A DNA stretch of 64,000 nucleotides from a virus, in the IMG/VR virus record IMGVR_UViG_3300042453_005404, positions 62,001 to 126,000 of that record, one strand, 5' to 3'. Position 1 is the stretch's first letter, and each line of letters begins with the position of its first letter. Below the pieces are notes generated by a model. That model did no database searches, was not told where the DNA came from, and saw only the letters and a list, made by a program, of their open reading frames with translations. Below, piece by piece: positions 45,047 to 60,925 of the stretch. Position numbers and translations under genes: made by a program.

Positions 45047-45280
45047 ATGCCGCCGCCTTATTCAATGAAACAAGGTAAGCTATATCGTGTGAGGGCATCA
45101 TTTCCTACTGACGCAGAAGCCTTTAGATTTACCCATCTTGGTGATGTTGTGGTTGCGATTGAAACGATGGAAGATCATAACAACGTTATTTATTGGAAGG
45201 TTCTTACAGCGAACGCAGAGTTGGTAGCAATTGCTGAGAGGAACGTTCAATATTTTCTGGAGGATATGAAAAATGACTGA
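45047..45280 (+). CDS. SH3-like superfamily member (divergent, no loop insert)
   Basis: 77 residues: MKQGKLYRV near the N-terminus, DVVVAIETMED in the middle, KVLTANAELVAI near the end. This is the same three-part pattern (GKLY, VVxxE, KxLT) as the large family at 48-61 kb. It lacks the PTKE segment and the variable loop. It follows the kinase gene by three bases. Function unknown. Confidence 0.55.
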   Translation: MPPPYSMKQGKLYRVRASFPTDAEAFRFTHLGDVVVAIETMEDHNNVIYWKVLTANAELVAIAERNVQYFLEDMKND

Positions 45281-45338
45281 GCCACGAACAGGCAAAGATC
45301 GTTTCTATTTCGCTTGTCACGGTACTTCAAACAAGTAG
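45273..45338 (+). CDS. 21-residue micro-protein candidate
   Basis: ATG at 45273, stop TAG 45336-45338, overlapping the end of the previous gene. A strong GGAGG lies nine bases upstream. The peptide (TEPRTGKDRFYFACHGTSNK) has no membrane segment. The good ribosome binding site is the only support. Confidence 0.3.
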   Translation: MTEPRTGKDRFYFACHGTSNK

Positions 45339-45345
45339 GAACAGC

Positions 45346-45570
45346 ATGATCGATCATTTGAAACTAGGTATGCTATTCGAATCAAAATGCGATTTCAAAT
45401 GTCTCGCAAGCACAAGTAATACACCAGTTCCACCAGTAGTTACCATTGAAAAAGGAGATCTTTTGGTTTTGATTGATTTCGAGGGTTATGAACATTATAG
45501 GTTTCTAGCCCCTGATGGTTCTACTGTGACAATGTATGGAACTTACAACTTAAAGAAAGTAGAAGAATGA
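45346..45570 (+). CDS. SH3-like superfamily member (divergent)
   Basis: 74 residues; SD AGGAAC. LKLGMLFESK, then GDLLVLIDFEGYEHYRFLAP and DGSTVTM, LKKVEE, follow the family order (LGxLF, VLIxxE, YxxLxxDGS, KKVE). A compact version with a short loop. Coupled to the next gene by ATGA. Confidence 0.5.
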   Translation: MIDHLKLGMLFESKCDFKCLASTSNTPVPPVVTIEKGDLLVLIDFEGYEHYRFLAPDGSTVTMYGTYNLKKVEE

Positions 45571-45767
45571 TTCATAAAGTATACATCGTTCGTTGTTCGT
45601 ATTGTCAAACTCCATTGTGTGAACCTCACGGTTTGGATCATCGACCCAGATATTTTTATCAACTTGATAGTATTCCACAAGCTATGAGTGAAGCAAACTG
45701 GGGTACAGTAAACGGATTGCAAGTTTGCAATCGTTGCCTAGAACGGCATCAACGATCAGAGTTTTAA
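45567..45767 (+). CDS. small zinc-ribbon protein
   Basis: 66 residues. VRCSYCQTPLCE near the N-terminus and LQVCNRCLERH near the C-terminus give two C-x2-C knuckles about 40 residues apart, a zinc-ribbon layout. It overlaps the upstream stop by four bases. Possible nucleic-acid or protein binding; no family recognised. Confidence 0.6.
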   Translation: MIHKVYIVRCSYCQTPLCEPHGLDHRPRYFYQLDSIPQAMSEANWGTVNGLQVCNRCLERHQRSEF

Positions 45768-45770
45768 ACC

Positions 45771-45805
45771 TTTATATTTAACAAAACATCTGATATCCTA
45801 ACATC
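45771..45805 (+). promoter_or_regulatory. leaderless promoter for the DNA ligase gene
   Basis: TTTATA (45771-45776), 17 bases ending TGA, TATCCT (45794-45799), six bases, ATG at 45806. Confidence 0.65.
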
Positions 45806-46960
45806 ATGGCAAAGATCATCACACATCGTACCCTTTTCACCCGTGATTCTCGTGGTTCCATTCGTACTTGGTACATGGAAACCAAAGGAGATAGCTATCG
45901 TACCGTTTCTGGTATTCTTGATACTCCTAGCTCTGTTGTTACATCAGAATGGACTGTGTGCGCAGGAAAGAATACTGGCCGTGCAAACGCTACAACTCCC
46001 GAGCAACAAGCTCTAAAGGAAGTAGAAAGCCGCTATACCAAGCAGCTTAAAACCGGTTACTTTGAGAATCAAAGCAACGTTGATGTTGCTCAATATGTCG
46101 AACCCATGCTAGCAAAGAGCTACGAAGATTATCGTGGCAAGCTAGACTTTTCTCCCGGTACTTGGTTTCTCAATGTCAAGTACAATGGTCTGCGTATGAT
46201 CGCAACCAAGGATGGACTGTTCACCCGTAAAGGTGAACGTTTCCTTTCAATCCCTCATATCGAAGAATCCCTTAAGCCATTCTTCCAGCAATATCCCAAC
46301 GCTGTTCTGGACGGTGAATGCTTCAACGAGCAGTATCGTCAAGAACTCAACGAGATTGTAAAGCTTGCTCGAAAGACCAAGAAAATCACCAAGGCAGACC
46401 TTGCCGAGAGTGAGCGTCTTATTCGTTATTACGTTTATGACGGTTATGGTTTTACTCCAGAACTAGGAGAAGATGCAGCATATCATAAGCGTAGGCTTTG
46501 GATCAACAGCAACGTTGTCAAGAAGTATGCTTATGTGGAAAAGATCGAGGATTGGCTTGTTAAGGATGAAGCACACATGATGGAGCTTTACAACAACATT
46601 GTGTCCCGTGGCCATGAAGGCGCTATTCTGCGTCTTGTTCGTATGCCTTATGAACACAAACGCAGCAAGAATCTTCTCAAGGTGAAGCCGTTGGAAGATG
46701 CTGAGTTTACGATTACCAACGTTCAAGAGGGTACAGGCAACTGGAGCGGTAAGGCTAAGATCATTTCTTTGCGTGATAGCAATGGCAAAGAGTTTGACGC
46801 TACCTTCAAGGGTACAATGGAAGATGCAGCGTACTTCTTGACCGTCAAGGATCAATGGATTGGCAAGGAAGTAACCGTGCAGTTTAATGGTTATACTGGT
46901 CTTGGTACCCCACAGTTTGCGCAACTAGACTACAAAAACATGGTTAAGGGTGACCGCTAA
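45806..46960 (+). CDS. ATP-dependent DNA ligase
   Basis: 384 residues. The N-terminal 90 residues (RTWYMETKGD, CAGKNTGRANATTPEQQALK, GYFENQ) form a WGR-like domain as in some viral ligases. The nucleotidyltransferase domain follows: motif I VKYNGLRM (adenylated Lys 125), motif III LDGECF, motif IV HEGAILR, motif V LLKVKP. The C-terminus (NWSGKAKIISLRDSNGKEFD) is an OB fold. Motif I has Asn where most ligases have Asp (K-x-D-G). It seals nicks during phage replication or repair. Leaderless promoter upstream. Confidence 0.85.
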   Translation: MAKIITHRTLFTRDSRGSIRTWYMETKGDSYRTVSGILDTPSSVVTSEWTVCAGKNTGRANATTPEQQALKEVESRYTKQLKTGYFENQSNVDVAQYVEPMLAKSYEDYRGKLDFSPGTWFLNVKYNGLRMIATKDGLFTRKGERFLSIPHIEESLKPFFQQYPNAVLDGECFNEQYRQELNEIVKLARKTKKITKADLAESERLIRYYVYDGYGFTPELGEDAAYHKRRLWINSNVVKKYAYVEKIEDWLVKDEAHMMELYNNIVSRGHEGAILRLVRMPYEHKRSKNLLKVKPLEDAEFTITNVQEGTGNWSGKAKIISLRDSNGKEFDATFKGTMEDAAYFLTVKDQWIGKEVTVQFNGYTGLGTPQFAQLDYKNMVKGDR

Positions 46961-46981
46961 ACCCTTGAAATCATAGAGAAA

Positions 46982-48117: not shown

Positions 48118-48449
48118 TGGTTGATGAAATGAACAATCTGCAACTTGGCAAAATGTATTTGGTTAAAGAGCTTTTCTGGCTTCTTTATCCAACGAAAGGT
48201 CTGGCAGGAGGGGCTGCGGACGGCTTCGGGGGGCATGGTTGGCGGTTGAAGAAGCTGACGACTGCTTATGAAACTGCAAAATGGGAGAGCGAAAGTTTCA
48301 ACTGCAATGTTGATGTTGTTGAAGAAAACACTTGCTTTGTTTTGCTTGAAGTAGACAACGGTTATTTCAAACTTCTTAACTCAAACGGTAACATTGGTTG
48401 GACTTGGGGTAGGGATTTCTTCGAGCATTTCGAACTTGTCAAGGAATAA
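48117..48449 (+). CDS. variable-loop SH3-like family, type A member 1
   Basis: 110 residues from the ATG overlapping the previous stop (TGATG); the ATG at 48129 matches other members and may be the real start. Core: LQLGKMYLVKELFWLLYPTK, then the variable loop (GGAADGFGGHGWRLKKLTTA), then FNCNVDVVEENTCFVLLEVD, FKLLNSNGNIGW, FELVKE. The flanks are near-identical in DNA to the other copies, while the loop DNA (about 48204-48276) is GC-rich and unrelated. The product is probably a compact beta barrel with a projecting loop. Function unknown. Confidence 0.65.
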   Translation: MVDEMNNLQLGKMYLVKELFWLLYPTKGLAGGAADGFGGHGWRLKKLTTAYETAKWESESFNCNVDVVEENTCFVLLEVDNGYFKLLNSNGNIGWTWGRDFFEHFELVKE

Positions 48450-48452: not shown

Positions 48453-48767
48453 ATGAACAATCTGCAACTTGGTAAGATGTATTTGGTTAAAGAGTTTTTC
48501 TGGTTTCTTTTTCCAACAAAAGAACTAGCGGAGCGCCAGTGCAGGTGGTCGAGGGCGGGGGCCTCGACATCGGGGGCGACGGGGGTGGCAAAAGTGTTAA
48601 GCCAAAATTTTAAATGCAACATTTTTGTTGTTGAACCAAAGACTTGCTTTGTTTTGCTTGAAGTAGATGATGATTATTACAAGCTTCTTGACTCAAATGG
48701 TAACATTGGTTGGATTTTTAGTTGGGATTTCTCTGGTTGTTTCGAACTTGTAAAGGATTTATGTTGA
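48453..48767 (+). CDS. variable-loop SH3-like family, type A member 2
   Basis: 104 residues; AAGGA of the previous gene's last codons acts as its Shine-Dalgarno. Variable loop ERQCRWSRAGASTSGATGVA (DNA 48529-48588, runs of G). Conserved SQNFKCNIFVVEPKTCFVLL and YYKLLDSNGNIGW. The C-terminus ends VKDLC rather than VKE because a promoter cassette (48764) replaces the usual AAGGAATAA junction. Confidence 0.65.
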   Translation: MNNLQLGKMYLVKEFFWFLFPTKELAERQCRWSRAGASTSGATGVAKVLSQNFKCNIFVVEPKTCFVLLEVDDDYYKLLDSNGNIGWIFSWDFSGCFELVKDLC

Positions 48768-48822
48768 GAATATTTTCAGAGTATGATATACTTTTGATAT
48801 GCTACAAATCGGTAAGATGTAT
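48741..48822 (+). repeat. 82-base direct repeat carrying a promoter, copy 1
   Basis: Matches 49408-49489 with one mismatch. It contains the last codons of one gene, the TTGAGA/TATACT promoter and the first eight codons of the next gene. Confidence 0.85.
48764..48798 (+). promoter_or_regulatory. leaderless promoter for type A member 3
   Basis: TTGAGA (48764-48769), 17 bases ending TGA, TATACT (48787-48792), six bases, ATG at 48799. Confidence 0.7.
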
Positions 48823-49116
48823 TTGGTTAAAGAGTATTTCTGGTTTCTTTTTCCAACAAAAGAACTGGCGGTGGGGGCGATCGATCGCTTCGAGGGGCGG
48901 GCGTCGCAGGGCTGGGCGGCGACGGGGGCGGTGGTGGCAAAAGTGTTAAGCGAACGTTATAAATGCAACATTTTTGTTGTTGAACCAAAGACTTGCGTTG
49001 TTTTGCTTGAAATGGATGAAACCGAACATTGCTATAAGCTTCTTGATTGTAATGGAAACATTGGTTGGACTCGTTGTTGGAGTTTCGCCTCCTATTTCGA
49101 GCTTGTAAAGGAATAA
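48799..49116 (+). CDS. variable-loop SH3-like family, type A member 3
   Basis: 105 residues, leaderless start (MLQIGKMYLVKEYFWFLFPT). Variable loop VGAIDRFEGRASQGWAATGA followed by VVA (DNA 48868-48938, very G-rich). Conserved KVLSERYKCNIFVVEPKTCV and CYKLLDCNGNIGW. The only type A copy that directly follows a promoter, so it may set transcription of the downstream copies. Confidence 0.65.
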   Translation: MLQIGKMYLVKEYFWFLFPTKELAVGAIDRFEGRASQGWAATGAVVAKVLSERYKCNIFVVEPKTCVVLLEMDETEHCYKLLDCNGNIGWTRCWSFASYFELVKE

Positions 49117-49122: not shown

Positions 49123-49434
49123 ATGCAACTTGGTAAGATGTATTTGGTTAAAGATTGGTTTTGGTTTCTTTATCCAACAAAAGAACTGGCAAGGACGCCT
49201 GCGGCGAAGGCGAGCAGGGCGATGCGGCCCACGAGGGCGAGGGCGGGGATGGATGCGAAATGGTTGAGCCAAGAATTTAAATGCAACGTTGGTGTTGTTG
49301 AACCAAACACTTGCGTTGTGTTGCTTGAAGTAGATAATGGTTATTTTAAGCTTCTTGATTCGAATGGTAACATTGGTTGGATTATTTGTTGGAATGTCTC
49401 CAAAAATTTCGAACTTGTAAGGGATTTATGTTGA
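49123..49434 (+). CDS. variable-loop SH3-like family, type A member 4
   Basis: 103 residues; SD AAGGA from the end of the previous gene. Variable loop RTPAAKASRAMRPTRARAGM followed by DA (DNA 49189-49257). Strongly basic loop, unlike members 1 and 3. The C-terminus is VRDLC, altered by the second promoter cassette (49431). Confidence 0.65.
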   Translation: MQLGKMYLVKDWFWFLYPTKELARTPAAKASRAMRPTRARAGMDAKWLSQEFKCNVGVVEPNTCVVLLEVDNGYFKLLDSNGNIGWIICWNVSKNFELVRDLC

Positions 49435-49489
49435 GAATATTTTCAGAGTATGATATACTTTTGATATGCTACAAATCGGTAAGATGTAT
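49408..49489 (+). repeat. 82-base direct repeat carrying a promoter, copy 2
   Basis: Partner of 48741-48822 (one mismatch, AAAGG versus AAGGG). Here it drives a divergent family member. Confidence 0.85.
49431..49465 (+). promoter_or_regulatory. leaderless promoter for gene 49466
   Basis: TTGAGA (49431-49436), 17 bases ending TGA, TATACT (49454-49459), six bases, ATG at 49466; identical to the promoter at 48764. Confidence 0.7.
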
Positions 49490-49711
49490 AAAGTTCCGTG
49501 GTATGTTGAAGCTGACGAGTACATAGCTGGACGACTGATTGAGCGAATCAAACTAAAAGATGGCGATCTTGTTGTTGTTGTTAGCATGGAAGAATACCGT
49601 ATGGGCGGGGAGATTCGTTGGGACACAAAACTGCTGACAGGTGACGGAAGACTTGTATACGTTTCGATATCGCAACCGGGGTCTGCATACTGGAAAAAAG
49701 CACATGAATAG
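49466..49711 (+). CDS. SH3-like superfamily member (divergent, no GC-rich loop)
   Basis: 81 residues. LQIGKMYKVPWYVEADEYIA, then GDLVVVVSMEEYR, KLLTGDGRLVYV and YWKKAHE follow the family order, but the PTKE segment and GC-rich insert are absent. Its first eight codons are identical to type A member 3 through the shared 82-base repeat, a sign of gene conversion or cassette exchange. Confidence 0.6.
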   Translation: MLQIGKMYKVPWYVEADEYIAGRLIERIKLKDGDLVVVVSMEEYRMGGEIRWDTKLLTGDGRLVYVSISQPGSAYWKKAHE

Positions 49712-50003
49712 AAATCTTCAAATCGGAAAGCTGTATAAAACACCTTGGAAGACTTCTTCTTACGGAGCTTACATCAAGTTTGATGATCATGGCATGGTGC
49801 CTGACTACAACAGAAGCATCGACCTTCCAGATGGCGCATATGTTGTTTTGCTTGAAGTTAACGTGAATAAAGCTGAATATTTCTATAACAATAGAAAAGC
49901 CAACACATACGTTCTTAAGGTTCTAACAGAGGATGGTGCTGTTGCATATGTTACGTGCACAGAAGCTGGTTTGGATTACTGGAAAAAGGTTGTTCGTCCA
50001 TAA
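49704..50003 (+). CDS. SH3-like superfamily member (divergent)
   Basis: 99 residues from the ATG at 49704, which overlaps the previous stop by eight bases and gives the family start NLQIGKLYKTPWKT. YVVLLEVNVNK, VLKVLTEDGAVAYV and YWKKV complete the pattern. Closest to the preceding gene (both keep GKxYKxPW and a terminal YWKK). The loop is ordinary AT-rich sequence. Confidence 0.55.
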   Translation: MNRNLQIGKLYKTPWKTSSYGAYIKFDDHGMVPDYNRSIDLPDGAYVVLLEVNVNKAEYFYNNRKANTYVLKVLTEDGAVAYVTCTEAGLDYWKKVVRP

Positions 50004-50052: not shown

Positions 50053-50427
50053 ATGAAGCAGAAGAAGGCTGTTGTTCGTCGCAAAGGTTCGGTTTCCAGC
50101 AAAGTCAAACAACTGGATTGGATCATGCAGTTTATCATTCGCATGAATCCTTGTGCGATTTGTGGTGGTTCCTTGGCTGATGGGTACAATCCTCGTTATC
50201 CGGGTAAAAGCATCACGCTGCATCATTCCATCGGAAGCCGTGAAGTTGACGATTGGGAGAATCTGGAGTATGTAGCTGGTATGGTGCTGTGTCATTCTAC
50301 ATGCCACAAGAGCTATCATTTGAAGCGCAGACACATGGATGCGGGCAAGGATGTAAACGAGGGCGAGGTTGCGATCATGGAAAGCAATATTGCCAAGGTT
50401 GTGAAGAAGCAGAGGAAAGTAAAATGA
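50053..50427 (+). CDS. HNH-type endonuclease-like protein
   Basis: 124 residues, basic N-terminus (KQKKAVVRRKGSVSSKVKQL). PCAICGGSL supplies one Cys pair, ITLHHSIG the catalytic His pair, and MVLCHSTCHKSYHLKRRH the second Cys pair and HNH-like end: a zinc-stabilised HNH/HHH fold. It may cut DNA during host takeover or act as a homing nuclease. Leaderless promoter. Its stop overlaps the next ATG. Confidence 0.65.
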   Translation: MKQKKAVVRRKGSVSSKVKQLDWIMQFIIRMNPCAICGGSLADGYNPRYPGKSITLHHSIGSREVDDWENLEYVAGMVLCHSTCHKSYHLKRRHMDAGKDVNEGEVAIMESNIAKVVKKQRKVK

Positions 50428-50642
50428 ATCACACGATTGGAAAAATGCATCAGTTTGTAGCCGTTCAACTACCGATTTATAATAGGATCGGAGACGTTCC
50501 GTTTGCTTACTTGGTACAGAATGAAGTTGTTGTTTTTCTTTCGAAAACAGATAAATACGTAAAGGTACTATTTGACGATGGCACCGTTGGAATAGTGCCT
50601 TATTTTCCAGAACGTGATCATTGGGTTGAATACACCGGTTAG
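50424..50642 (+). CDS. SH3-like superfamily member (divergent, short)
   Basis: 72 residues from the ATG overlapping the HNH stop (ATGA). HTIGKMHQFVAVQ, then NEVVVFLSKTDKYVKVLFDD, GTVGIVPYF and WVEYTG show the minimal family core with almost no loop. Useful as a picture of the ancestral domain. Confidence 0.55.
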   Translation: MNHTIGKMHQFVAVQLPIYNRIGDVPFAYLVQNEVVVFLSKTDKYVKVLFDDGTVGIVPYFPERDHWVEYTG

Positions 50643-50656: not shown

Positions 50657-50986
50657 ATGTCCGAATATATTGAATCCGAGACAAACTGTTGGAACAAATC
50701 ACCAATGAAACAAGGTAAACTGTATTACGGGCTTTGTGATCGAGAGGTGATCGAAGAAAAGCTTTTACCTCATTTTTTTGATGCTCATGAGATCAATGAT
50801 GTGATTGAGGTAGTAGACGCAGCATCACCGGTTGTATTCTTGGAAAAGACAATCACAAGGCGAGAGGATGGATACGGTGGTAGAGAAAGGTATCAAACCT
50901 TTATAAAGATTCTTACACCTGCTGGAAATATTGGTTGGGTTGTTTGGTTTGAAGGCGATTGGAAGGAAGTAAAATCATGTCAATAA
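50657..50986 (+). CDS. SH3-like superfamily member (divergent)
   Basis: 109 residues; SD AGGAG about ten bases before the ATG. After a 16-residue extension: MKQGKLYYGLCD, a charged loop, then PVVFLEKTITRR, FIKILTPAGNIGWVVWFEGD and WKEVK. The loop is long but AT-rich and acidic, not GC-rich. The end carries the SD of the next gene. Confidence 0.55.
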   Translation: MSEYIESETNCWNKSPMKQGKLYYGLCDREVIEEKLLPHFFDAHEINDVIEVVDAASPVVFLEKTITRREDGYGGRERYQTFIKILTPAGNIGWVVWFEGDWKEVKSCQ

Positions 50987-51486: not shown

Positions 51487-51828
51487 ATGATAAAAATATT
51501 GACAGGTGCCGAGCTAGTTCCCGGCAAAATGTATACTATTTGGGGGCGTTTGAATCGTGATACGTGGCCCGCATATCATCAACGACCAACTCTTCAATCA
51601 CCATCAACTGTTGCAACTGTTGCTCCATTGTTTCCATTGGAGCCATTTGTGTTTTTAGAACGCACGCCAAGTGAGTTTAGATGGAATGAAACCGATCCAA
51701 TGTATGACTACAAAATATTGACTTGTGACGGCGTTGTGGGCTGGCTATGCTTTCATGACGATGATTTGTCTGCTTTGGGTATTGGTTTTCGTGAATATGA
51801 TCCAAAAGACTTTGAAGTAAACCTTTAA
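51487..51828 (+). CDS. SH3-like superfamily member (divergent, Pro/Thr-rich loop)
   Basis: 113 residues, starting directly after the stop of the broken copy. ELVPGKMYTIWGRLNRDTWP, a loop of Pro, Ser and Thr (HQRPTLQSPSTVATVAPL), EPFVFLERT, YKILTCDGVVGWLCF and FEVNL. Same core order. The loop sits where type A and B members carry the GC-rich insert. Confidence 0.6.
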   Translation: MIKILTGAELVPGKMYTIWGRLNRDTWPAYHQRPTLQSPSTVATVAPLFPLEPFVFLERTPSEFRWNETDPMYDYKILTCDGVVGWLCFHDDDLSALGIGFREYDPKDFEVNL

Positions 51829-52363: not shown

Positions 52364-53503
52364 ATGATGAACGTTCACCCGGCTCTTCGTTTCTCGTTTG
52401 ACCATCTTCGCACGGCTCTTATGACCCGTGTGGATTCTGGTGCAATCAACATCACTCGCAAGGGTTCTCTGGCCCTTTTCAACTATTCCAAGGATTGTCA
52501 GTTTGAGCATCTTTGGGATGATTATACCATCATGGCCCGTGGTCTTATTCTCGACATGGAGAATGAGTCTATTGTGGCTCTTCCTTTTCCCAAGTTCTTC
52601 AATGCGTCGGAGAAGGAGGGTGCTAGTGTTGTCAAGTTTGATGCTCCCTTTGATGCGTATACCAAGATGGACGGATCGCTGGGTATCGTGTATTTCCACA
52701 ATGGTTCATGGCACGTTGCAACCCGTGGTTCGTTTACGTCCGAACAGTCTGTGTGGGCAGAGAAGTGGCTGCACGATAACCTCAAGCCTTATCACCAGCT
52801 TGATCAGAATGTGACATATCTTTGTGAGATTATCTATGACAGCAACCGTATTGTTATCAACTACCCTTTTGAGGGTTTGGTGATGCTTGGTGCTTATAAC
52901 CGTGTTACCGGCATTGAGCTTGACTATGATCGTGATTTGCGTCCGTTGTGTGAGCGTATCGGTATGATGCTTGCAGAGCGTCACCAGTTCACTTCATTTG
53001 TTGCTGCACAGGAGTTTGTCAAGACTCTTCCCGGCAACGAGGAAGGTTTCGTTATTCGTTTTCGGGATTCTGGCGAGCGTGTAAAGCTCAAGGGTTCTGA
53101 ATATTGCTCTTTGCACAAGATGATTAGCAACATTACTCCTTTGGCTATCTGGGAGCTTTTGTGTGCGGGTTACTCCATTGAAGATTACAAGAAGGCTTTG
53201 CCGGAAGAGTTTTGGGATGAGGTTGACGAGATTGTTGGTCATTTCCAGCGTCGTGCTGCTTGTGTTATGCTGGATGTTGTGAACCTTTATTCCGAGGTTT
53301 CTGATTTGTCTGACAAGGATCTTGGTTTGAAGCTGGCTGGCGAGTTCAAGCGTCGTGAGAATGCTTCGTTGCTGTTCCCTTATCGTAAGAAGGGAACGGC
53401 TTTGGTTCACGGTTTGGTGATGAAGTCTTTGCGGCCTACTGGAAACGTGATTGAGGGATATGTGCCGTCTGCCATGCTCCAGCGTTCTCAGTCGGAGGAA
53501 TGA
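52364..53503 (+). CDS. T4 Rnl1-like RNA ligase
   Basis: 379 residues, near the length of T4 RNA ligase 1. ARGLILDMENESIVALPFPK, then FFNASE, precedes motif I YTKMDGSLGIVYF (adenylated Lys 101; Lys 99 in T4 Rnl1). CEIIYDSNRIVINYP is motif IIIa, EEGFVIRF motif IV and RVKLKGSEY motif V; a helical Rnl1-type C-terminal domain follows. In T4 this enzyme with Pnk repairs tRNA cut by host anticodon nucleases. Leaderless promoter. Higher GC than neighbours. The end supplies the GGAGG for the next gene. Confidence 0.85.
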   Translation: MMNVHPALRFSFDHLRTALMTRVDSGAINITRKGSLALFNYSKDCQFEHLWDDYTIMARGLILDMENESIVALPFPKFFNASEKEGASVVKFDAPFDAYTKMDGSLGIVYFHNGSWHVATRGSFTSEQSVWAEKWLHDNLKPYHQLDQNVTYLCEIIYDSNRIVINYPFEGLVMLGAYNRVTGIELDYDRDLRPLCERIGMMLAERHQFTSFVAAQEFVKTLPGNEEGFVIRFRDSGERVKLKGSEYCSLHKMISNITPLAIWELLCAGYSIEDYKKALPEEFWDEVDEIVGHFQRRAACVMLDVVNLYSEVSDLSDKDLGLKLAGEFKRRENASLLFPYRKKGTALVHGLVMKSLRPTGNVIEGYVPSAMLQRSQSEE

Positions 53504-53505
53504 TC

Positions 53506-53811
53506 ATGCAACTCGGCAAGATGTATTTGGTTAAAGAGCTTTTCTGGTTTCTTTATCCAACAAAAGAACGGGCGGAGTATGGGCGTGCGAGGGCGGCGTC
53601 CGTTGCGGCGATGGCGTGGCGGTGGGCGGCGAATAATGCAAAAGTGTTAAGCGAACGTTATAAATGCAACGTTTTTGTTGTTGAAGAAAACACTTGCGTT
53701 GTTTTGCTTGAAGTAGATGATGATTATTACAAGTTTCTTGATTGTAATGGAAACATTGGTTGGATTATTTGTCGGGATTTCTCCAACTATTTCGAGATTG
53801 CAAAGGAATAA
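53506..53811 (+). CDS. variable-loop SH3-like family, type A member 5
   Basis: 101 residues from the ATG at 53506 (GGAGG seven bases upstream; an ATG at 53500 overlaps the ligase stop). Variable loop EYGRARAASVAAMAWRWAAN (DNA 53570-53639, G-rich). Flanks as in the other members (KVLSERYKCNVFVVEENTCV; YYKFLDCNGNIGW), ending FEIAKE. Confidence 0.65.
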   Translation: MQLGKMYLVKELFWFLYPTKERAEYGRARAASVAAMAWRWAANNAKVLSERYKCNVFVVEENTCVVLLEVDDDYYKFLDCNGNIGWIICRDFSNYFEIAKE

Positions 53812-53817: not shown

Positions 53818-54138
53818 ATGCAACTTGGTAAGATGTATTTGGTTAAAGAGCTTTTCTGGCTTCTCTTTCCAACAAAAGAAGTAGCGTGCGACCTTATGGC
53901 GATAGGCTGGGACAGCCCACTGGAGGCAACAGTGGAGAAGGGGCAGGCTTATCAAGAAGCAGACTATATAAGTGAACATATGTGTTGCGACGTTGCTGTG
54001 GTGGAAGAAAATACTTGTTTTGTGTTGCTTGAGCAAGATGAAAAGCTTTTCAAACTTCTTGATTGCAACGGTAACATTGGTTGGATATGGTGTAGGTGTT
54101 TGTCTTTTTCCAAGTATTTCGAACTTGTAAAGGAATAA
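53818..54138 (+). CDS. variable-loop SH3-like family, type A member 6
   Basis: 106 residues. Variable loop CDLMAIGWDSPLEATVEKGQ then AYQEA (DNA 53884-53960); this loop is less GC-rich and more acidic than the others, and the following segment (DYISEHMCCDVAVV) has also diverged. The conserved FKLLDCNGNIGWIW and FELVKE end remain. It could be an older copy whose loop has drifted to the genome's base composition. Confidence 0.65.
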   Translation: MQLGKMYLVKELFWLLFPTKEVACDLMAIGWDSPLEATVEKGQAYQEADYISEHMCCDVAVVEENTCFVLLEQDEKLFKLLDCNGNIGWIWCRCLSFSKYFELVKE

Positions 54139-54144: not shown

Positions 54145-54447
54145 ATGCAACTTGGTAAGATGTATTTGGTTAAAGAGTATTATTGGTTTATGTTTCCAAC
54201 AAAAGAACTAGCGGAGGCCATCGCCGCTGGACGGCGGGCGCTGGCCGCACTCGATGCGGGCGCTGCGGGACGGAGGGTGGCGAGCGAAGATTATAACTGC
54301 AACAACGTTTCTTTTGTTGAAGAAAACACTTACGTTGTTTTGCTTGAACAAGACAATGATTATATCAAAATTCTTGACTCAAATGGAAACATTGGTTGGA
54401 TTGTTTGTTGGGATTTTTCCGACTTTTTCGAACTTGTAAAGGAATAA
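54145..54447 (+). CDS. variable-loop SH3-like family, type A member 7
   Basis: 100 residues. Variable loop EAIAAGRRALAALDAGAAGR (DNA 54211-54282), Ala/Arg-rich and probably helical. Conserved NCNNVSFVEENTYVVLLEQD and IKILDSNGNIGW. SD AAGGA from the upstream copy. Confidence 0.65.
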   Translation: MQLGKMYLVKEYYWFMFPTKELAEAIAAGRRALAALDAGAAGRRVASEDYNCNNVSFVEENTYVVLLEQDNDYIKILDSNGNIGWIVCWDFSDFFELVKE

Positions 54448-54453: not shown

Positions 54454-54750
54454 ATGCAACTTGGTAAGATGTATCGTTTTACAGAAAGAGCAAAACGAGC
54501 TTGCATAAGGTATGCAATCAAAAACCGTTGGCCTCTCACGTTCTCTTCCGAGGTTAGTCTCGCAAAAGGTCGAGTGCGGGCGCAATATCCATTGGATTCA
54601 TGCATTGTTGTGTTAGAGTCTCACGAAACAACAACTTCTGGAAAGCTTTTGTCTGGTAAAACATCACGCAGACTTAAGGTTTTACTTCCTGATGGTAAGA
54701 TTGGTACGATGTATGTGGATACAACAGAATGGGAACAGGTAACTGAATGA
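54454..54750 (+). CDS. SH3-like superfamily member (type A-derived, loop without GC insert)
   Basis: 98 residues. The first 30 bases (MQLGKMY codons) and leader are identical to type A copies, after which the protein diverges (RFTERAKRACIRYAIKNRWP), then CIVVLESHETT, LKVLLPDGKIGTMYV and WEQVTE. A hybrid made of a type A 5' end joined to a divergent body suggests recombination within the family. Confidence 0.6.
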   Translation: MQLGKMYRFTERAKRACIRYAIKNRWPLTFSSEVSLAKGRVRAQYPLDSCIVVLESHETTTSGKLLSGKTSRRLKVLLPDGKIGTMYVDTTEWEQVTE

Positions 54751-55259: not shown

Positions 55260-55466
55260 ATGGGATACGTAAAAGACATGGTGCTTCACAAGCAAGAAGA
55301 GCTTGCTGGTGAGATTCACGAAGATGCTTTTCTCGCTTATCTGGAAGAGATGGAGCAGATTCAAAACAATCACATTCTGGCAGATCATGTGATTCTTAGC
55401 AATGGCAAGCGTTGCTATATTCAAGCGAACTGTTATCCTGCTGACGGTGTGTGTGAGTGCAAGTAA
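55260..55466 (+). CDS. small acidic hypothetical protein
   Basis: 68 residues. Acidic helix (EELAGEIHEDAFLAYLEEME) followed by a Cys-rich end (KRCYIQANCYPADGVCECK) that might bind metal. The stop overlaps the next ATG (TAATG). Function unknown. Confidence 0.55.
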   Translation: MGYVKDMVLHKQEELAGEIHEDAFLAYLEEMEQIQNNHILADHVILSNGKRCYIQANCYPADGVCECK

Positions 55467-55741
55467 TGCAACTCGGTAAGATGCATTTGGTTAAAGAGTG
55501 GTTTTGGTTTCTTTATCCAACAAAAGAAAAGACGTGGCGCTCGGGGCCAGCGGCGAGGGCGGATAATGCAAAATTGTTAAGCGAACATGTCCAATGCAAC
55601 GTTTTTGTTGTTGAACCAAACACTTGTGTTGTTTTGCTTGAAGTAGATAATGGTTATTTTAAGCTTCTTGATTCAAACGGAAACATTGGTTGGATTCGTT
55701 GTTGGAGTTTCGCCTCCTATTTCGAGCTTGTAAAGGAATAA
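55466..55741 (+). CDS. variable-loop SH3-like family, type A member 8 (shortest loop)
   Basis: 91 residues from the ATG overlapping the previous stop. Variable loop only about 13 residues (TWRSGPAARADNA; DNA 55530-55568). Flanks KLLSEHVQCNVFVVEPNTCV and FKLLDSNGNIGWIRCW. It shows that loop length varies by whole codons. Confidence 0.65.
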   Translation: MQLGKMHLVKEWFWFLYPTKEKTWRSGPAARADNAKLLSEHVQCNVFVVEPNTCVVLLEVDNGYFKLLDSNGNIGWIRCWSFASYFELVKE

Positions 55742-55747: not shown

Positions 55748-56047
55748 ATGCAACTTGGTAAGATGTATTTGGTTAAAGATTGGTTTTGGTTTCTTTATCC
55801 AACAAAAGAACTGGCGATGCGTGGGCGGAGCTCGGGGGAGGGGGCGATGACGCTGGCGAACGGGCGGCTGGGCGCAGAATGGTTGAGCCAAGAATTTAAA
55901 TGCAACGTTGGTGTTGTTGAACCAAACACTTGCTTTGTCTTGCTTGAAGTAGATGAAGTATATTTCAAGGTTCTTGATTGTAATGGAAACATTGGTTGGA
56001 CTTATTGCTTTGATTTCTCTGGTTATTTCGAACTTGTAAAGGAATAA
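55748..56047 (+). CDS. variable-loop SH3-like family, type A member 9
   Basis: 99 residues. Variable loop MRGRSSGEGAMTLANGRLGA (DNA 55814-55876). The following EWLSQEFKCNVGVVEPNTCF is shared with members 4 and 11, so right flanks fall into at least two sequence types (KVLSERYKCN and xWLSQxFKCN) that occur with either left flank. Confidence 0.65.
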   Translation: MQLGKMYLVKDWFWFLYPTKELAMRGRSSGEGAMTLANGRLGAEWLSQEFKCNVGVVEPNTCFVLLEVDEVYFKVLDCNGNIGWTYCFDFSGYFELVKE

Positions 56048-56051: not shown

Positions 56052-56351
56052 ATGAACGATCTTCAACTCGGTAAGATGTATTTGGTTAAAGAGTGGTTTT
56101 GGTTTCTTTATCCAACAAAAGAACTGGCGGCGGGGTTCTCGTCGCCGTCGAGGGCGGAGTGGTGGTGTAATGCAAAAGTGTTAAGCGAACGTTATAAATG
56201 CAACGTTTTTGTTGTTGAACCAAACACTTGCGTTGTTTTGCTTGAAGTAGATAATGGTTATTTTAAGCTTCTTGATTCAAACGGTAACATTGGTTGGATA
56301 TGGTGTAGGTGTTTGGCTTTTTCCAAGCATTTCGAACTTGTCAAGGAATAA
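56052..56351 (+). CDS. variable-loop SH3-like family, type A member 10
   Basis: 99 residues (NDLQLGKMYLVKEWFWFLYP). Variable loop AGFSSPSRAEWWCNA (DNA 56127-56173). Right flank KVLSERYKCNVFVVEPNTCV; end IGWIWCRCLAFSKHFELVKE, nearly the same end as member 6. Confidence 0.65.
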   Translation: MNDLQLGKMYLVKEWFWFLYPTKELAAGFSSPSRAEWWCNAKVLSERYKCNVFVVEPNTCVVLLEVDNGYFKLLDSNGNIGWIWCRCLAFSKHFELVKE

Positions 56352-56355: not shown

Positions 56356-56688
56356 ATGCAACTTGGTAAGATGTATTTGGTTAAAGAGTATTGTTGGTTT
56401 CTTTATCCAACAAAAGAACTGGCCTCGACGACGGGGCCACGGTGGTCGAGCGTGAGGCGGTGGCCCTCCGACGAGGAGCGCACGGTGGCTTATCGAGATG
56501 CAAAATGGTTGAGCCAAGCATTTAAATGCAACGTTGGTGTTGTTGAACCAAAAACTAGTTTTGTCTTGCTTGAACAAGACAAGGATCATTTCAAGGTTCT
56601 TGATTCAAACGGAAACATTGGTTGGATTCGTAGCGATGATTTTTCGAAAAATTTCAAGGTTTTGAATGAAAAGAAGAATAACCTTTAG
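56356..56688 (+). CDS. variable-loop SH3-like family, type A member 11
   Basis: 110 residues from the ATG at 56356, the family start; an open frame extends upstream only through the previous copy. Variable loop STTGPRWSSVRRWPSDEERT then VAYRDA (DNA 56423-56500), Trp- and Arg-rich. Right flank KWLSQAFKCNVGVVEPKTSF. The C-terminus has drifted (FKVLNEKKNNL) and its last codons overlap the -35 of the next promoter. Confidence 0.65.
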   Translation: MQLGKMYLVKEYCWFLYPTKELASTTGPRWSSVRRWPSDEERTVAYRDAKWLSQAFKCNVGVVEPKTSFVLLEQDKDHFKVLDSNGNIGWIRSDDFSKNFKVLNEKKNNL

Positions 56689-57694: not shown

Positions 57695-57883
57695 ATGAAC
57701 AACGACGAAAAGCAAAAACTTATCGACGATTTCGAAAAAGCTATTAGCGAGATTCGTGTGTTGCGTTACACTTCTCCAGATGAAGAGCTAAAAGGTCTTA
57801 GAGTTCATTTGTTTGAGAATGAATGGGATAGGTTGGAGCACACTATTAGAGAACTAAGAAAGAATGAAACCGAAGAAAGGTAA
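57695..57883 (+). CDS. small charged helical protein
   Basis: 62 residues. Two amphipathic helices (DEKQKLIDDFEKAISEIRVL; WDRLEHTIRELRKNETEER) that could form a coiled coil. Overlaps the next gene by 20 bases. Confidence 0.5.
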   Translation: MNNDEKQKLIDDFEKAISEIRVLRYTSPDEELKGLRVHLFENEWDRLEHTIRELRKNETEER

Positions 57884-58148
57884 GCTTTACACACTAGAGC
57901 TTAAATGGAACACAGATCCTGCGAATATCAGATCTGTTGCTGTATGGAATCGCAGACTTGATGTTGGTGACTTTATGGATAAATCATTAGTGATAGGCAG
58001 AATCGAATACAACAAAGATATGTTTATCTTTTTGGAAGATGGAACAAACGGATTTAGCCAAAAGAGTCCAAAGATTTTGACCAGCGATGGAGTTGTTGGG
58101 TATATTGTGCCAAACTATGATATCTGTTCGATGAAACGGGTTAAGTAG
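57864..58148 (+). CDS. SH3-like superfamily member (divergent)
   Basis: 94 residues; purine-rich leader. KKGKLYTLELKWN, then DMFIFLEDGTNGF, PKILTSDGVVGYIVPNYD and MKRVK follow the family order. The loop is an AT-rich, polar segment of about 35 residues. It is separate from the arrays and has no PTKE segment. Confidence 0.55.
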   Translation: MKPKKGKLYTLELKWNTDPANIRSVAVWNRRLDVGDFMDKSLVIGRIEYNKDMFIFLEDGTNGFSQKSPKILTSDGVVGYIVPNYDICSMKRVK

Positions 58149-58894: not shown

Positions 58895-59092
58895 ATGGGA
58901 ATAAATGGGGATACCAAGGATATTGGTTGGATTCAATGTAGCCAATGTGGGTGGGGTTGTGAAGTACATCGTTCAGAAGTTGAGATTGGGGATTATGTAG
59001 ATCGGCAATCATGTCCTGATTGTGGTCTTGGGCCATGTGAGATTGATTGGGATTATCCAGATGGTAAGGGTTGGGTAGCAGAAAAAGTTTGA
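58895..59092 (+). CDS. small zinc-ribbon protein
   Basis: 65 residues. IQCSQCGWGCEVHRSE and QSCPDCGLGPCEIDW give two C-x2-C knuckles about 25 residues apart: a classic short zinc ribbon. SD GAGG within the upstream stop. A third ribbon protein in this region (with 45567 and 58162). Confidence 0.6.
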   Translation: MGINGDTKDIGWIQCSQCGWGCEVHRSEVEIGDYVDRQSCPDCGLGPCEIDWDYPDGKGWVAEKV

Positions 59093-59117
59093 CTTATTGA
59101 TAATGGTATGATAGTTT
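59089..59117 (+). promoter_or_regulatory. promoter with a leader for gene 59143
   Basis: TTGACT (59089-59094), 17 bases ending TGA, TAGTTT (59112-59117). The ATG follows 25 bases later with SD AAGGAAA, so this one is not leaderless. Confidence 0.5.
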
Positions 59118-59142
59118 AAACCTATCGAAAGCAAAGGAAAAT

Positions 59143-59364
59143 ATGAAAGCAACGTTTAAGTCATTTGTCGAAGGCGAGAAGCGATTCATTGTAGTAGGTG
59201 AGCCTCATGTATATCAGAATGGATTCCTTGTCACTTGTATTGATACAAGCACTGGAGAAACCGAAAGCAAAACTATCGCAAGCTCTGAGAGACTTGATCT
59301 ATGTGAGTTCGAACTAAAATGCCTTGGTAAAGTTGTTTGGGAAAAGAAGCTTATCCCAGTATGA
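59143..59364 (+). CDS. small beta-rich hypothetical protein
   Basis: 73 residues; SD AAGGAAA. KATFKSFVEGEKRFIVVGEP, GFLVTCIDTSTGETESKTIA, FELKCLGKVVWEKKL: regular beta strands. Its stop overlaps the next ATG (59361). Unknown function. Confidence 0.55.
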   Translation: MKATFKSFVEGEKRFIVVGEPHVYQNGFLVTCIDTSTGETESKTIASSERLDLCEFELKCLGKVVWEKKLIPV

Positions 59365-59756
59365 CAGAGATAGAAGAAGAAAGAATGTGGCTCAAGTGTT
59401 TGGAGCTGGAACGAGAGAATAAACGTCTTCGTGAAATAATGAACATCGGATCGCTTTATACAGTGAAGAAGTATTTTTGGTTGCTTTTTCCAACAAAAGC
59501 CCTCACCGTGGGTGACGAACTGCACGCCGATGGCCACGGCCACGCCATCCCCTTCGCCGCCTTCGCCTCCATCGCCGCCGATTATTGGAGCAGACGATAC
59601 AACTGTGAAGTTACTTATTTTTGTCCTGATTCAATCGTTGTTTTCCTTGAAGAAGATGGAAATTACAAGAAAGTTCTGACTTCAGATGGAAAGATTGGTT
59701 GGATTTGGTTTGCTGAAGAATACTACAACGATTGCTTTGAGGAAGTAAATCCATGA
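59361..59756 (+). CDS. variable-loop SH3-like family, type B member 1 (with coiled-coil extension)
   Basis: 131 residues from the ATG in the ATGA overlap; the family start MNIGSLYTVKKYFWLLFPTK is at 59439 and may be used instead. The extra N-terminal 26 residues (TEIEEERMWLKCLELERENK, RLREI) form a coiled coil. Variable loop TVGDELHADGHGHAIPFAAF then ASIAA (DNA 59499-59580, C-rich). Right part YWSRRYNCEVTYFCPDSIVV, YKKVLTSDGKIGWIW, CFEEVNP. Confidence 0.6.
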   Translation: MTEIEEERMWLKCLELERENKRLREIMNIGSLYTVKKYFWLLFPTKALTVGDELHADGHGHAIPFAAFASIAADYWSRRYNCEVTYFCPDSIVVFLEEDGNYKKVLTSDGKIGWIWFAEEYYNDCFEEVNP

Positions 59757-60052
59757 ACATTGGAAGCCTTTATAGGGTTAAGAAGTTTTATTGGTTGCTT
59801 TTTCCAACAAAAGAAATCGCCGCTGTAGCAGAACACCCCGCCTCCTCCCCCAGCGCCGCCGCCCTCGCCGCCGCCAGCGCCTATTGGAGCGGCCAGCTGA
59901 ACTGTGAAGTAACTTGTTTTTCTCCTGATTCCATTATTGTATTTCTTGAAGAAGATGGGAAATACAAGAAGGTTCTGACTTCTGAAGGAAGAATCGGATG
60001 GACTTGGTTTATTGAATCATATAACGAATGCTTTGAGGAAGTAAATCCATGA
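59753..60052 (+). CDS. variable-loop SH3-like family, type B member 2
   Basis: 99 residues. Variable loop AVAEHPASSPSAAALAAAS (DNA 59818-59880). Conserved AYWSGQLNCEVTCFSPDSII, YKKVLTSEGRIGWTWF, CFEEVNP. The loop DNA contains CCGCCCTCGCCG, the reverse complement of a 12-base stretch in the type A loop at 55551-55562. Confidence 0.65.
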   Translation: MNIGSLYRVKKFYWLLFPTKEIAAVAEHPASSPSAAALAAASAYWSGQLNCEVTCFSPDSIIVFLEEDGKYKKVLTSEGRIGWTWFIESYNECFEEVNP

Positions 60053-60363
60053 ACATTGGATCGCTTTATACAGTGAAGAAGTATTTTTGGTTTCTTTTTT
60101 CAACAAAAGCCGTCGCCGCCGCCGCATCCGACCCACCGTCCACCGCCGCATCCGACGCACCGTCCGCCGCCGCCGCCGGAGAAGCCGCTGCTTATTTGAG
60201 CAGACGATACGACTGTGAAGTTACTTATTTTTCTCCTGATTCCATCGTTGTTTTCCTTGAAAATGATGGAAAACTCAAGAAAGTATTGACTTCTGATGGA
60301 AAGATTGGTTGGACTTGGTTTAGTGAAACCTATAACGAATGCTTTGAGGAAGTAAATCCATGA
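60049..60363 (+). CDS. variable-loop SH3-like family, type B member 3
   Basis: 104 residues. Variable loop AAASDPPSTAASDAPSAAAA then GEAA (DNA 60109-60190), with an internal near-duplication of the unit GCATCCGACsCACCGTCC, pointing to slippage. PTKA is replaced by STKA. Right part AYLSRRYDCEVTYFSPDSIV, LKKVLTSDGKIGWTW. Confidence 0.65.
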   Translation: MNIGSLYTVKKYFWFLFSTKAVAAAASDPPSTAASDAPSAAAAGEAAAYLSRRYDCEVTYFSPDSIVVFLENDGKLKKVLTSDGKIGWTWFSETYNECFEEVNP

Positions 60364-60665
60364 ACATTGGATCGCTTTATACAGTGAAGAAGTGGTCTTG
60401 GTCACTTTTTCCAACAAAGGAAACTGCCGCCGCCGCCGCCGCAAGCAGCCCCGCCGCCGCAGGAGCCGCTCCCGACGCCGCTCCCGCCGCTGATTATTGG
60501 AGCAAACAGTTAAACTGCAATGTAACCTACTTTTCTCCTGATTCCTATATTGTCTTCTTGGAAGAAGATACGAAGTTCAAGAAAGTTCTTACTTCTACTG
60601 GAAAGCTTGGTTGGGTTTGGTTTGATGAAAGTTATAATCATTGTTTTGAGGAAGTATCGTCGTGA
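60360..60665 (+). CDS. variable-loop SH3-like family, type B member 4
   Basis: 101 residues. Variable loop AAAAASSPAAAGAAPDAAPA (DNA 60421-60492), built largely of GCCGCC repeats. Right part DYWSKQLNCNVTYFSPDSYI, FKKVLTSTGKLGWVWF, CFEEVSS. The stop overlaps the GTG of the next family member. Confidence 0.65.
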   Translation: MNIGSLYTVKKWSWSLFPTKETAAAAAASSPAAAGAAPDAAPAADYWSKQLNCNVTYFSPDSYIVFLEEDTKFKKVLTSTGKLGWVWFDESYNHCFEEVSS

Positions 60666-60925
60666 GGATTCTTCAAGGTGCAACAGCCGTAGATGTTAAC
60701 GATGTGATACTGGATATAGGTGGATTATATCATTATCCATACAGCGTATGTCTTCGTGAAAACGATTGCAAAGCACACGGCTCAGTTGTTGATCAATACA
60801 CTCCATTTGTTGTATTAGAGTTTATTGAAGGGCTTTCCGGCAAGTATCTAAGAATTCTTACCACAACTGGAGAGATTGGTCTTGTACAATACAACTCAAG
60901 ATACTTGAAGCAGATTGAGAAGTAA
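60662..60925 (+). CDS. SH3-like superfamily member (divergent, GTG start)
   Basis: 87 residues from a GTG in a GTGA overlap; GAGGAAG upstream is the SD. DIGGLYHYPYSVC, TPFVVLEFIEGLSGKYLRIL, TTTGEIGLVQY and LKQIEK fit the family core without the PTKE segment or GC-rich loop. It closes the type B array. Confidence 0.55.
   Translation: MRILQGATAVDVNDVILDIGGLYHYPYSVCLRENDCKAHGSVVDQYTPFVVLEFIEGLSGKYLRILTTTGEIGLVQYNSRYLKQIEK

Follow-up and report, generated by a model that had tools for sequence, protein, structure and literature searches.

The SH3 fold is a five-stranded barrel with RT, n-Src and distal loops, of which the RT loop, together with the n-Src loop, is a main determinant of ligand choice in SH3 domains generally; the canonical eukaryotic domain has an ALYDY-type first strand, a Trp after the n-Src loop, and the Pro and Tyr of the proline pocket. 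Diversity-generating retroelements confine hypervariability to a local segment of a binding fold whose framework is conserved; their template and variable repeats are of equal length, and the changes are adenine-directed. Among phages, the passages of PMC13164509 on Drexlerviridae such as KanT1 describe a stand-alone SH3 protein (DUF7244) present in single copy adjoining lysis genes, and those of Hua 2017 (PMC5646251) and Iyer 2021 (PMC7824862) on the jumbo phages G and 121Q describe tandem arrays of more than 30 similar genes, the amplified family of phage G being a zinc ribbon in the latter account (PMC7824862).

The window analyzed here comprises 64,000 nucleotides of viral DNA (positions 62,001 to 126,000 of IMG/VR record IMGVR_UViG_3300042453_005404), and the genes described below lie at 45047-60925 of it.

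Extent and membership of the family

Profile search finds 41 members in the whole 260,466-base virus record (E <= 2.1e-6, with the next ORF at 0.022), all on one strand, of which 25 fall within 45047-60925 and occupy 7,368 of its 15,879 bases (46%). The preliminary description had proposed about 25 members in this span, a count that holds there and is an understatement for the record. Across the record the members divide into 19 divergent proteins and 22 of types A and B (18 type A, 4 type B). A profile prepared from 55 relatives in other phages (five records), containing no sequence of the present genome, picks exactly these 41 among 685 ORFs, the first non-member having E 0.23; this test is not fully independent because the 55 relatives were first found using the 41. 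In the list below, E-values of divergent members are against this other-phage profile, and supports are from a FastTree tree.

45047..45280, plus strand: divergent member, 77 aa; E 5.4e-7
45346..45570, plus strand: divergent member, 74 aa, weakest of the ten named genes; E 0.004 (3e-7 to the 41-row profile containing it)
48129..48449, plus strand: type A member; variable GC-rich RT-loop segment 48201-48275
48453..48767, plus strand: type A member; variable segment 48525-48587
48799..49116, plus strand: type A member; variable segment 48865-48936
49123..49434, plus strand: type A member; variable segment 49186-49254
49466..49711, plus strand: divergent member, 81 aa; E 4.7e-8; clade with G005 and G007 members, support 0.96
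49704..50003, plus strand: divergent member, 99 aa; E 9e-15; in the clade of 49466..49711 with G005 and G007 members
50424..50642, plus strand: divergent member, 72 aa, minimal SH3 core; E 1.4e-6; AlphaFold pLDDT 91.3, pTM 0.77
50657..50986, plus strand: divergent member, 109 aa, ortholog of G005_31695; E 4e-12; pair support 0.95
51487..51828, plus strand: divergent member, 113 aa, ortholog of G005_30472 (57% amino acid identity); E 8.9e-15; support 0.99; dN/dS 0.24
53500..53811, plus strand: type A member; variable segment 53569-53637
53818..54138, plus strand: type A member; variable segment 53881-53955; AlphaFold pLDDT 88.0, pTM 0.79
54145..54447, plus strand: type A member; variable segment 54208-54270
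54454..54750, plus strand: divergent member, 98 aa, related to G005_28482 and G005_28780; E 7.8e-14; support 0.83; dN/dS 0.17
55466..55741, plus strand: type A member; variable segment 55529-55567
55748..56047, plus strand: type A member; variable segment 55811-55873
56052..56351, plus strand: type A member; variable segment 56124-56171
56356..56688, plus strand: type A member; variable segment 56419-56499
57864..58148, plus strand: divergent member, 94 aa; E 1.1e-7
59439..59756, plus strand: type B member; variable segment 59502-59576
59753..60052, plus strand: type B member; variable segment 59816-59875
60049..60363, plus strand: type B member; variable segment 60112-60186
60360..60665, plus strand: type B member; variable segment 60423-60488
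60662..60925, plus strand: divergent member, 87 aa, GTG start; E 1.1e-11; grouped with G005_26219, G005_26705 and G005_23054, support 0.85

The ten divergent genes that the preliminary description had named are all present as plus-strand ORFs where it placed them, and all match the other-phage profile (E 9e-15 to 1.4e-6, except 45346 at 0.004). It had suggested a search with a profile of types A and B as a check: when benchmarked against 4,110 decoys (best decoy E 0.0099), this profile alone separates 50657, 50424, 51487 and 60662 from the best decoy (E 1e-4 to 2e-3), but the other six are recovered only after iteration. Members are 71-113 aa long, and not up to 130 residues as had been proposed. 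The order of motifs given earlier also stands in part, by relaxed patterns chosen in the present analysis: a GKxY-like motif and a loose K-x-L-x3-[GA] strand occur in 41/41 members, but the strict form K-x-L-x3-G-x-[IV]-G in 28/41 and [FW]xx[VI] close to the C-terminus in 26/41. The residue after GK[LMI] is Tyr or His/Phe/Cys in all 41, and an aromatic residue lies three or fewer positions upstream of KxL in 33.

The homologous family numbers at least 98 members over six records including the present one, relatives in the other records coming from an examination of 50 of 79 loci, selected largely for the length of their contigs; 95 of the 98 enter alignment A6, three with N or cut ends being excluded. 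No family in Pfam, PHROG or PADLOC fits the members. Among INPHARED phages, type A has no relatives by megablast or tblastn (E 10), and three divergent members have none at E 1; IMG/VR, searched with the single protein 56052, returned no relatives. Judged by these profiles, the 41 proteins of the present record are one homologous family.

Predicted fold and two layers of members

AlphaFold predicts an SH3 barrel both for the divergent protein 50424 and for the type A protein 53818; in the latter, two additional helices interrupt the strands where the RT loop would lie. Both models have the SH3 strand order and match SH3/SH3b chains, the remaining 39 members being assigned by profile homology only. 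The best structure matches of the 50424 core are 2evr, 6bim and 6biq (Z 8.2, 64 residues, 2.3-2.8 Å), SH3b domains from NlpC/P60 enzymes, from LytB and from endolysins are among its best matches, and identity among the listed matches is 6-28%. The type A model has Pex13p as its top Foldseek match and reaches a VIA-align Z of at most 7, which is weak if taken alone; similarly, the only matches below E 0.1 of the 95-row profile to PDB sequences are Pex13p SH3 domains, with E-values (0.0064-0.018) that are not significant alone. Eleven of the 95 members match SH3_3 (PF08239) weakly (best E 0.012, limit E 1), more than match any other Pfam model among the families listed, and no member reaches its gathering cut-off; DUF7244 is not among the 25 Pfam families listed for these 95. 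The members are predicted to fold like SH3_3 and lie outside PF08239 by the Pfam rule. The earlier proposal of an SH3-like superfamily agrees with the profiles, the two confident models and the structure matches, and the possibility it raised of a different fold in divergent members does not apply to 50424, the one of the 19 that was modelled.

Several divergent members are conserved, as they have cross-phage orthologs in the FastTree tree with dN/dS of 0.17-0.48 where unsaturated. The 19 divergent members, with several of these orthologs under apparent purifying selection, look long-lived. The 22 type A/B members are organized in tandem arrays specific to each phage; purifying selection is seen in their cores too, and best-paralog cores are mostly 75-91% identical. 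The A/B cores recombine: the best partner differs among three segments in 17/17 type A genes examined (a count made with no null run). The 68 nt preceding the variable segment of 49123..49434 are identical to those of 55748-56047. Strong selection for variety, proposed in the preliminary description for the whole superfamily, fits only the type A/B arrays, several of the divergent members being conserved.

Hypervariable loop DNA

In types A and B, strong variability is located where the RT loop that joins strands two and three reaches its tip; there an in-frame segment of 33-81 nt cannot be aligned between copies. Statistics were calculated for 33 loops (17 of 18 type A, 4 of 4 type B and 12 from other phages); the set leaves out type A 130531 (missed by the pattern), G014_47280 (gap of N) and, by pattern, the A/B-like genes G005_29103, G005_29408, G005_100632 and G005_100925, of which the first three have loops of ordinary or low GC. 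Mean loop GC is 0.72 versus about 0.35 for the cores, and GC3 is 0.79 versus 0.26 expected from the amino acids and background codon use (genome GC3 0.30). In no case does the identity between loops depart by more than about 3 s.d. from that of shuffled loops, while best-paralog cores are 0.75-0.91 identical. The loops are in frame, stop-free and sharply bordered in four phages, and are Ala-rich and partly of low complexity. Not all related loops are GC-rich: A/B-like G005 genes include G005_40883 (0.40), G005_29103 (0.37) and G005_29408 (0.39, boundary badly placed), which are AT-normal, and G005_100632 (0.48).

The commonest third base is G, by a clear margin, in 15/17 type A loops (one being mixed and one C-rich), and it is C in 4/4 type B loops and 11/12 other-phage loops. 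Capture of random host DNA is unlikely, since the third-base type is constant across a lineage. Loops have excess lag-3 identity (combined Z 5.8) and more adjacent near-identical codons than expected (247 vs 219 ± 10; 6/2000 shuffles); adjacent identical codons are weakly enriched (60 vs 49; 89/2000 shuffles), and simple recent slippage alone is thus insufficient. RNA hairpins were rejected as an explanation of the GC-rich loops (mean folding z of -0.23 over 33 loops, one below -2), as was capture from elsewhere in the genome, for which blastn over 96 kb gives one 17-nt match plus GCC runs. Of 21 GC islands (>=0.70 over 60 nt) in the 96 kb scanned, 16 are in A/B genes, one is in another member and four are in unrelated genes; such islands are thus not exclusive to the loops. 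Around position 47,000 of G000, a gene unrelated to the family also contains a Pro/Ala-rich GC island.

Possible roles and comparison with known systems

We give about an even chance to the joint explanation that the family consists of lineage-specific, stand-alone, soluble SH3-fold proteins acting as binding modules that have diversified at the loop governing specificity and whose targets are probably variable proteins of the host or of competitors. Each copy would be a small module whose RT loop recognizes a different target, the likeliest being fast-changing proteins of the host or of competing phages. The A/B arrays would gain new specificities through duplication of a head-to-tail unit carrying the ribosome-binding site for the next gene, through exchange of segments among copies and through replacement of the loop cassette; divergent single-copy members would have settled on fixed targets. 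For the loop DNA we favour as the most likely source that in-frame triplet tracts of the GCG/GCC type expand and rearrange locally and are then selected, in line with the excess lag-3 identity and the adjacent near-identical codons. Weighing against the binding-module reading are the wide spread of net charge (-9 to +7), which suggests no common target, and the AT-normal loops of some A/B-like G005 genes. As to the role in host takeover or anti-defence that the preliminary description raised as a possibility, for a region it took to be early, no PADLOC model matches the 95 members above chance level (five models match one member each, E 0.0047-0.02), and PADLOC covers defence, not counter-defence.

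A different view is that the genes are ballast: tandem duplicates in a large genome whose cores are kept alike by gene conversion, while the tips of their RT loops, being tolerant of change, drift as linkers of low complexity and high GC, so that variety would reflect absent constraint and not selection for binding. The Ala-rich, partly low-complexity loops are consistent with this, as are the GC island of the unrelated gene and the segment exchange, which makes cores seem younger than loops; Hua 2017 (PMC5646251), in its passages on the arrays of more than 30 genes in phages G and 121Q, reads these as tandem duplication. However, unconstrained old DNA is expected to drift toward the genome GC3, from which the loops stay far removed, purifying selection acts on the divergent members and on the cores, and frame, absence of stops and sharp borders are kept in four phages; we consider this view unlikely. 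Nucleic-acid-binding accessory proteins of the SH3/KOW type, serving phage replication, transcription or RNA repair, would suit the adjoining RNA and DNA enzymes, isolated Pfam matches to KOWx_SPT5, eIF-1a and Rho RNA-binding models, and the small SH3-fold protein adjoining phiKZ-type DNA polymerases in the relevant passages of Iyer 2021 (PMC7824862). This role is improbable: those Pfam matches are weak, involve one member each and are below cut-off, and net charge is mostly negative or neutral.

Cell-wall-binding SH3b proteins that aid lysis or host recognition, as in Drexlerviridae, are a quite improbable alternative. The 50424 core does resemble SH3b domains of wall enzymes, and the KanT1 paper (PMC13164509) proposes such a role in its passages on stand-alone phage SH3; yet all 41 members are free of any membrane-like hydrophobic stretch over 19 residues, forty copies are odd for a single wall, neighbours identified by Pfam act on nucleic acids or in RNA repair (a kinase, DNA ligase, amidoligase, T4-type RNA ligase, phosphoesterase and exonuclease), and no lysis gene is among the ORFs searched with Pfam, which are part of the neighbouring ORFs. 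Loops made by a diversity-generating retroelement, to which the conserved flanks enclosing a variable segment in a binding protein might point, are rejected on unequal loop lengths and the lack of a reverse transcriptase match: the 260,466-base record, possibly incomplete, has no RVT_1 (PF00078) match at E 0.1, a model that gave matches in 4/14 control genomes. The flank pattern is also not adenine substitution, and blastn detects no template copy of the loops in 96 kb.

A bolder form of the binding-module reading, offered tentatively as a doubtful possibility, is that this phage clade has a diversification system unlike retroelement-based ones, in which in-frame GC-rich DNA is placed or regrown at the RT-loop tip to maintain a standing repertoire. 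The tandem genes would then serve as cassettes. The process might be dedicated or a hot-spot, working through expansion of triplets or through synthesis without a template and favouring G as third base in type A but C in the other lineages, and one virion might carry at least 20 binding specificities, a logic comparable to that of antigen-receptor loops. A literature search matched no described protein-diversification route to the loop anatomy (sharp borders, lengths that keep the frame, high GC at every codon position, a single third base prevailing in each lineage, and no reverse transcriptase found), which points to generation of protein variety without a matched described counterpart. Large phages are rich in small genes without an assigned role, and a fifth of a kilobase of recurring fold accounts for dozens; a testable idea is that such a phage carries a panel of SH3 binders, some of them fixed and others varying rapidly. 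Should proteins of host defence or of competitors prove to be what the loops bind, the family would offer natural scaffolds for binding and would mark an arms race.

Compared with known systems, SH3_3 (PF08239) and NlpC/P60 SH3b domains have the barrel topology in common with the present family, which differs in that its members are single-domain proteins without an enzyme and types A and B bear a large RT-loop-tip insertion; eukaryotic SH3 domains (Pex13p, Src family) have its strand order. KanT1 DUF7244 is likewise a lone phage SH3 domain, but in single copy, and neither array nor hypervariable loop is reported in the passages of PMC13164509 on it. Profile A6 at E 0.1 matched 0/5 records, phages G and 121Q included, in a search run without a positive control; the arrays of these phages, in whose description (the relevant passages of PMC5646251 and PMC7824862) no hypervariable GC-rich cassette appears, resemble the present family in that a large phage has amplified one gene to 30-40 copies within its own lineage. 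Diversity-generating retroelements differ, as the present loops are GC-rich and variable in length and reverse transcriptase was not found in the record, and share with the A/B genes a conserved framework enclosing a local variable segment.

Size, fold and distribution of the family

The preliminary description proposed a roughly 25-member SH3-like superfamily at window positions 45047-60925, with ten named genes beyond types A and B (tandem-array members with a variable RT-loop segment); plus-strand ORFs are present at all ten coordinates. A profile of 15 type A and B proteins, the search then suggested, was run against 685 ORFs taken from both strands of the window plus two stretches flanking it; the 4,110 decoys were shuffled and reversed sequences. 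In round one 4 of the ten named genes were clear of all 4,110 decoys, and iteration recovered 41 ORFs at E < 0.005 (best decoy 0.05), all 41 on the plus strand. Against the whole record (260,466 bases, the window being bases 62,001-126,000), the 41-row profile gave 41 matches at E <= 2.1e-6, the next being 0.022. They form three clusters, named by position in the record:

49.6-53.7 kb, + strand: cluster 1, 8 members
107.0-122.9 kb, + strand: cluster 2, the region originally described, 25 members
126.6-131.2 kb, + strand: cluster 3, 8 members

The superfamily is real and, with 41 members in the record (18 type A, 4 type B and 19 divergent), bigger than first described; the original span contains exactly 25, which occupy 46% of it, and measured lengths are 71-113 aa, not up to 130 residues.

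The SH3-like fold was also rightly assigned, as models of the divergent member 50424 (72 residues, modelled with the 41-row alignment; pLDDT 91.3, pTM 0.77) and the type A member 53818 (pLDDT 88.0, pTM 0.79), both named by window start, have the SH3 strand order. The 50424 strands span residues 8-11, 15-19, 28-31, 35-41, 45-49, 55-59 and 67-69, and the sequence runs from a GKMH first strand through a two-strand RT loop, a VVVFL strand and a short n-Src loop to a KVL strand, a distal DDG turn and the final strands. The 53818 model keeps these strands and adds two helices (20-28 and 41-54) at the RT-loop tip; its confidence falls to 64 across residues 31-40. Foldseek returned no E-value below 0.001, but the hits are almost all SH3 or SH3b chains, and the probability for the 50424 core is near 1. 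VIA-align of this core with NlpC/P60 SH3b domains gave Z 8.2 over 64 residues at 2.3-2.8 A; for the type A model, Z is at most 7.0. Below E 0.1, a 95-row profile matched solely three Pex13p SH3 entries among PDB sequences. PF08239 (Bacterial SH3) was touched by 11 of 95 members and every other Pfam model by at most 2, no member passing a Pfam cut-off in these scans; PHROG and PADLOC scans gave isolated weak matches only. We conclude that the family has an SH3 fold and is absent from family catalogues.

With a baseplate-wedge protein of the window as query, 79 IMG/VR loci were found; cultured relatives by this protein, Flavobacterium phage immuto and Microcystis phage Mel-JY01, show just 28-32% identity. 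The 41-row profile matched 5 of the records of 50 of these loci (G005, 27 matches; G014, 6; G010, 5; G007, 3; G042, 1), and G001, another phage record reached through type A/B, gave 6. Iteration on the retrieved stretches yielded 98 members in six records (best decoy 0.067): 41 in the present record (G000), 31 in G005, 8 in G001, 7 in G010, 6 in G014 and 5 in G007. In G042, which is more distant, the 95-row profile has one clear match and three weak ones. A profile of the 55 non-G000 members alone retrieves exactly the 41 G000 members among the 685 ORFs (next 0.23), and ORFs of reversed DNA reach 0.19 at best against the full profile. No family member was found in INPHARED phages with the queries used, and five named phages, large or related, gave no match to the family profile. 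Bases 1-235 of a bacterial contig stretch (L134; JALRFH010000219.1, Halieaceae MAG) hold, at the extreme contig edge, a type B-like gene start (GSLYLVKQWSWLLFPSKETAA) that continues into the antisense of a GAPDH-like ORF; the fragment, probably an assembly chimera, shows that another phage has type B.

Divergent members and type A/B arrays

In a FastTree tree built on columns without the loop, divergent members pair between phages: 51487 with G005_30472 (support 0.99), the 52108 group from four phages (0.99), 50657 with G005_31695 (0.95), and 49466/49704 with G005 and G007 members (0.96). Type A and B genes group by phage, the 18 type A genes of G000 making up a single clade (plus one further member or missing loop row) and the six G014 genes another, which implies amplification or homogenisation inside each phage. 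The strong selection for variety proposed earlier therefore holds for the type A/B layer and fails for the divergent layer, given its cross-phage pairs and a dN/dS of 0.17-0.48 in 6 of 10 pairs, those with unsaturated synonymous sites.

Neighbouring array genes are spaced by 3-6 nt or overlap by 4 nt. The last codons of a copy (VKE-stop, AAGGAATAA; EEVNP, GAGGAAGT) can be interpreted as a Shine-Dalgarno-like sequence for the next copy, which would make one gene a self-contained unit of duplication. GC skew becomes strongly positive at the start of the small-gene region (window 48000-64000; 0.15-0.26 in most 2-kb bins).

The GC-rich RT-loop segment and its origin

A GC-rich segment follows PTK/PSK in 17 of 18 type A genes, 4 of 4 type B genes and 12 genes from three other phages, with a mean GC of 0.72 in G000 and 0.65 in the other phages; cores have about 0.31-0.38. 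Loop GC3 is 0.794 (type A), 0.793 (type B) and 0.685 (other phages), against 0.26, 0.25 and 0.27 expected from loop amino-acid content and structural-gene codon use, and 0.28-0.31 in the cores of the same genes; the GC richness is thus not caused by amino-acid content. At the third codon position, G is most frequent in type A loops and C elsewhere. Across the 5' loop border GC rises in 12-nt bins from 0.36 to 0.75, and mean pairwise identity in type A genes falls from 0.93 through 0.56 to 0.31; 49123 and 55748 are identical over 68 nt before the loop and >40 nt after it, and unalignable between. Nearest-paralog cores have nucleotide identities of 0.75-0.91 and dS mostly of 0.17-0.5 (maximum 0.79), and loop identity between nearest paralogs is not clearly above that of shuffled loops (54145 lies about 3 s.d. 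above). Point mutation at the core synonymous rate cannot erase loop identity so fully, so that either loops were replaced or rebuilt, or cores were homogenised by conversion. High loop GC3 speaks against loops that are very old and drifting. Exchange of segments between copies is suggested; the best partners of three segments differ in 17 of 17 genes, in a comparison without null model.

Three origins of the loops were weighed, and local triplet expansion with selection is placed first: loops would expand from GCG or GCC tracts and then change at codon positions one and two, which fits the moderately raised similarity of adjacent codons, although identical neighbours are only weakly enriched. 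Old loops with gene conversion around them come second; some targeted process comes third. Separately, a folding test gave no support to RNA structure as a cause of the loops, nor did a search of the record to a retroelement as their source.

GC-rich stretches also occur elsewhere. A short plus-strand ORF outside the family (L009:2676-3080, G000 46676-47080) has a Pro/Ala/Ser-rich, GC-rich tail with near-repeats and GC up to 0.77, and the loop-making process may be active here too. A 68-aa ORF at window 44376-44582 has a middle (44415-44512) of 72% GC that is not low-complexity.

Gene neighbourhood, function and known systems

For a soluble, stand-alone SH3 domain we infer binding as the simplest role. 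The variable segment sits in the RT loop, which in SH3 domains helps set ligand choice; published papers deal with RT and n-Src loops and specificity. Neighbours in the window are a kinase, DNA ligase, amidoligase, T4-type RNA ligase, phosphoesterase and exonuclease; because repair genes for RNA and DNA frequently serve counter-defence in phages, host or competitor proteins are plausible targets. The first cluster is adjoined by a deaminase and an MnmA-like enzyme, the latter a tRNA 2-thiouridylase-like gene (L009:4525-5559; PF03054, E 5e-63) immediately preceding the first type A array. A cytidine/dCMP deaminase-like gene with a family member right after it is found in G000 (L009:8920-9336 and 9347-9655) and G001 (L013:2814-3263 and 3260-3532), a conserved synteny. 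In G001 (L013, L011) family members are interspersed with several pentapeptide-repeat-like genes (ADLRGANL repeats).

Large phages with amplified gene arrays are already known: in the excerpted text of the cited sources, phages G and 121Q carry tandem arrays of >30 similar genes (Hua 2017, PMC5646251), cited again in a 2026 jumbo-phage review (PMC13282480), and phage G has a zinc-ribbon expansion of 35 copies (Iyer 2021, PMC7824862). The same excerpts place a small SH3-fold protein beside phiKZ-type polymerases (Iyer 2021, PMC7824862) and a stand-alone SH3 beside lysis genes in KanT1 (PMC13164509), and name Tad1 as the sole anti-defence protein described in jumbo phages (PMC13282480). A literature search, mostly without subscription journals, found neither this family nor GC-rich hypervariable SH3 loops described. 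Set beside the known arrays, an SH3 family this large, whose RT loop carries a hypervariable GC-rich cassette, is a novel variation.
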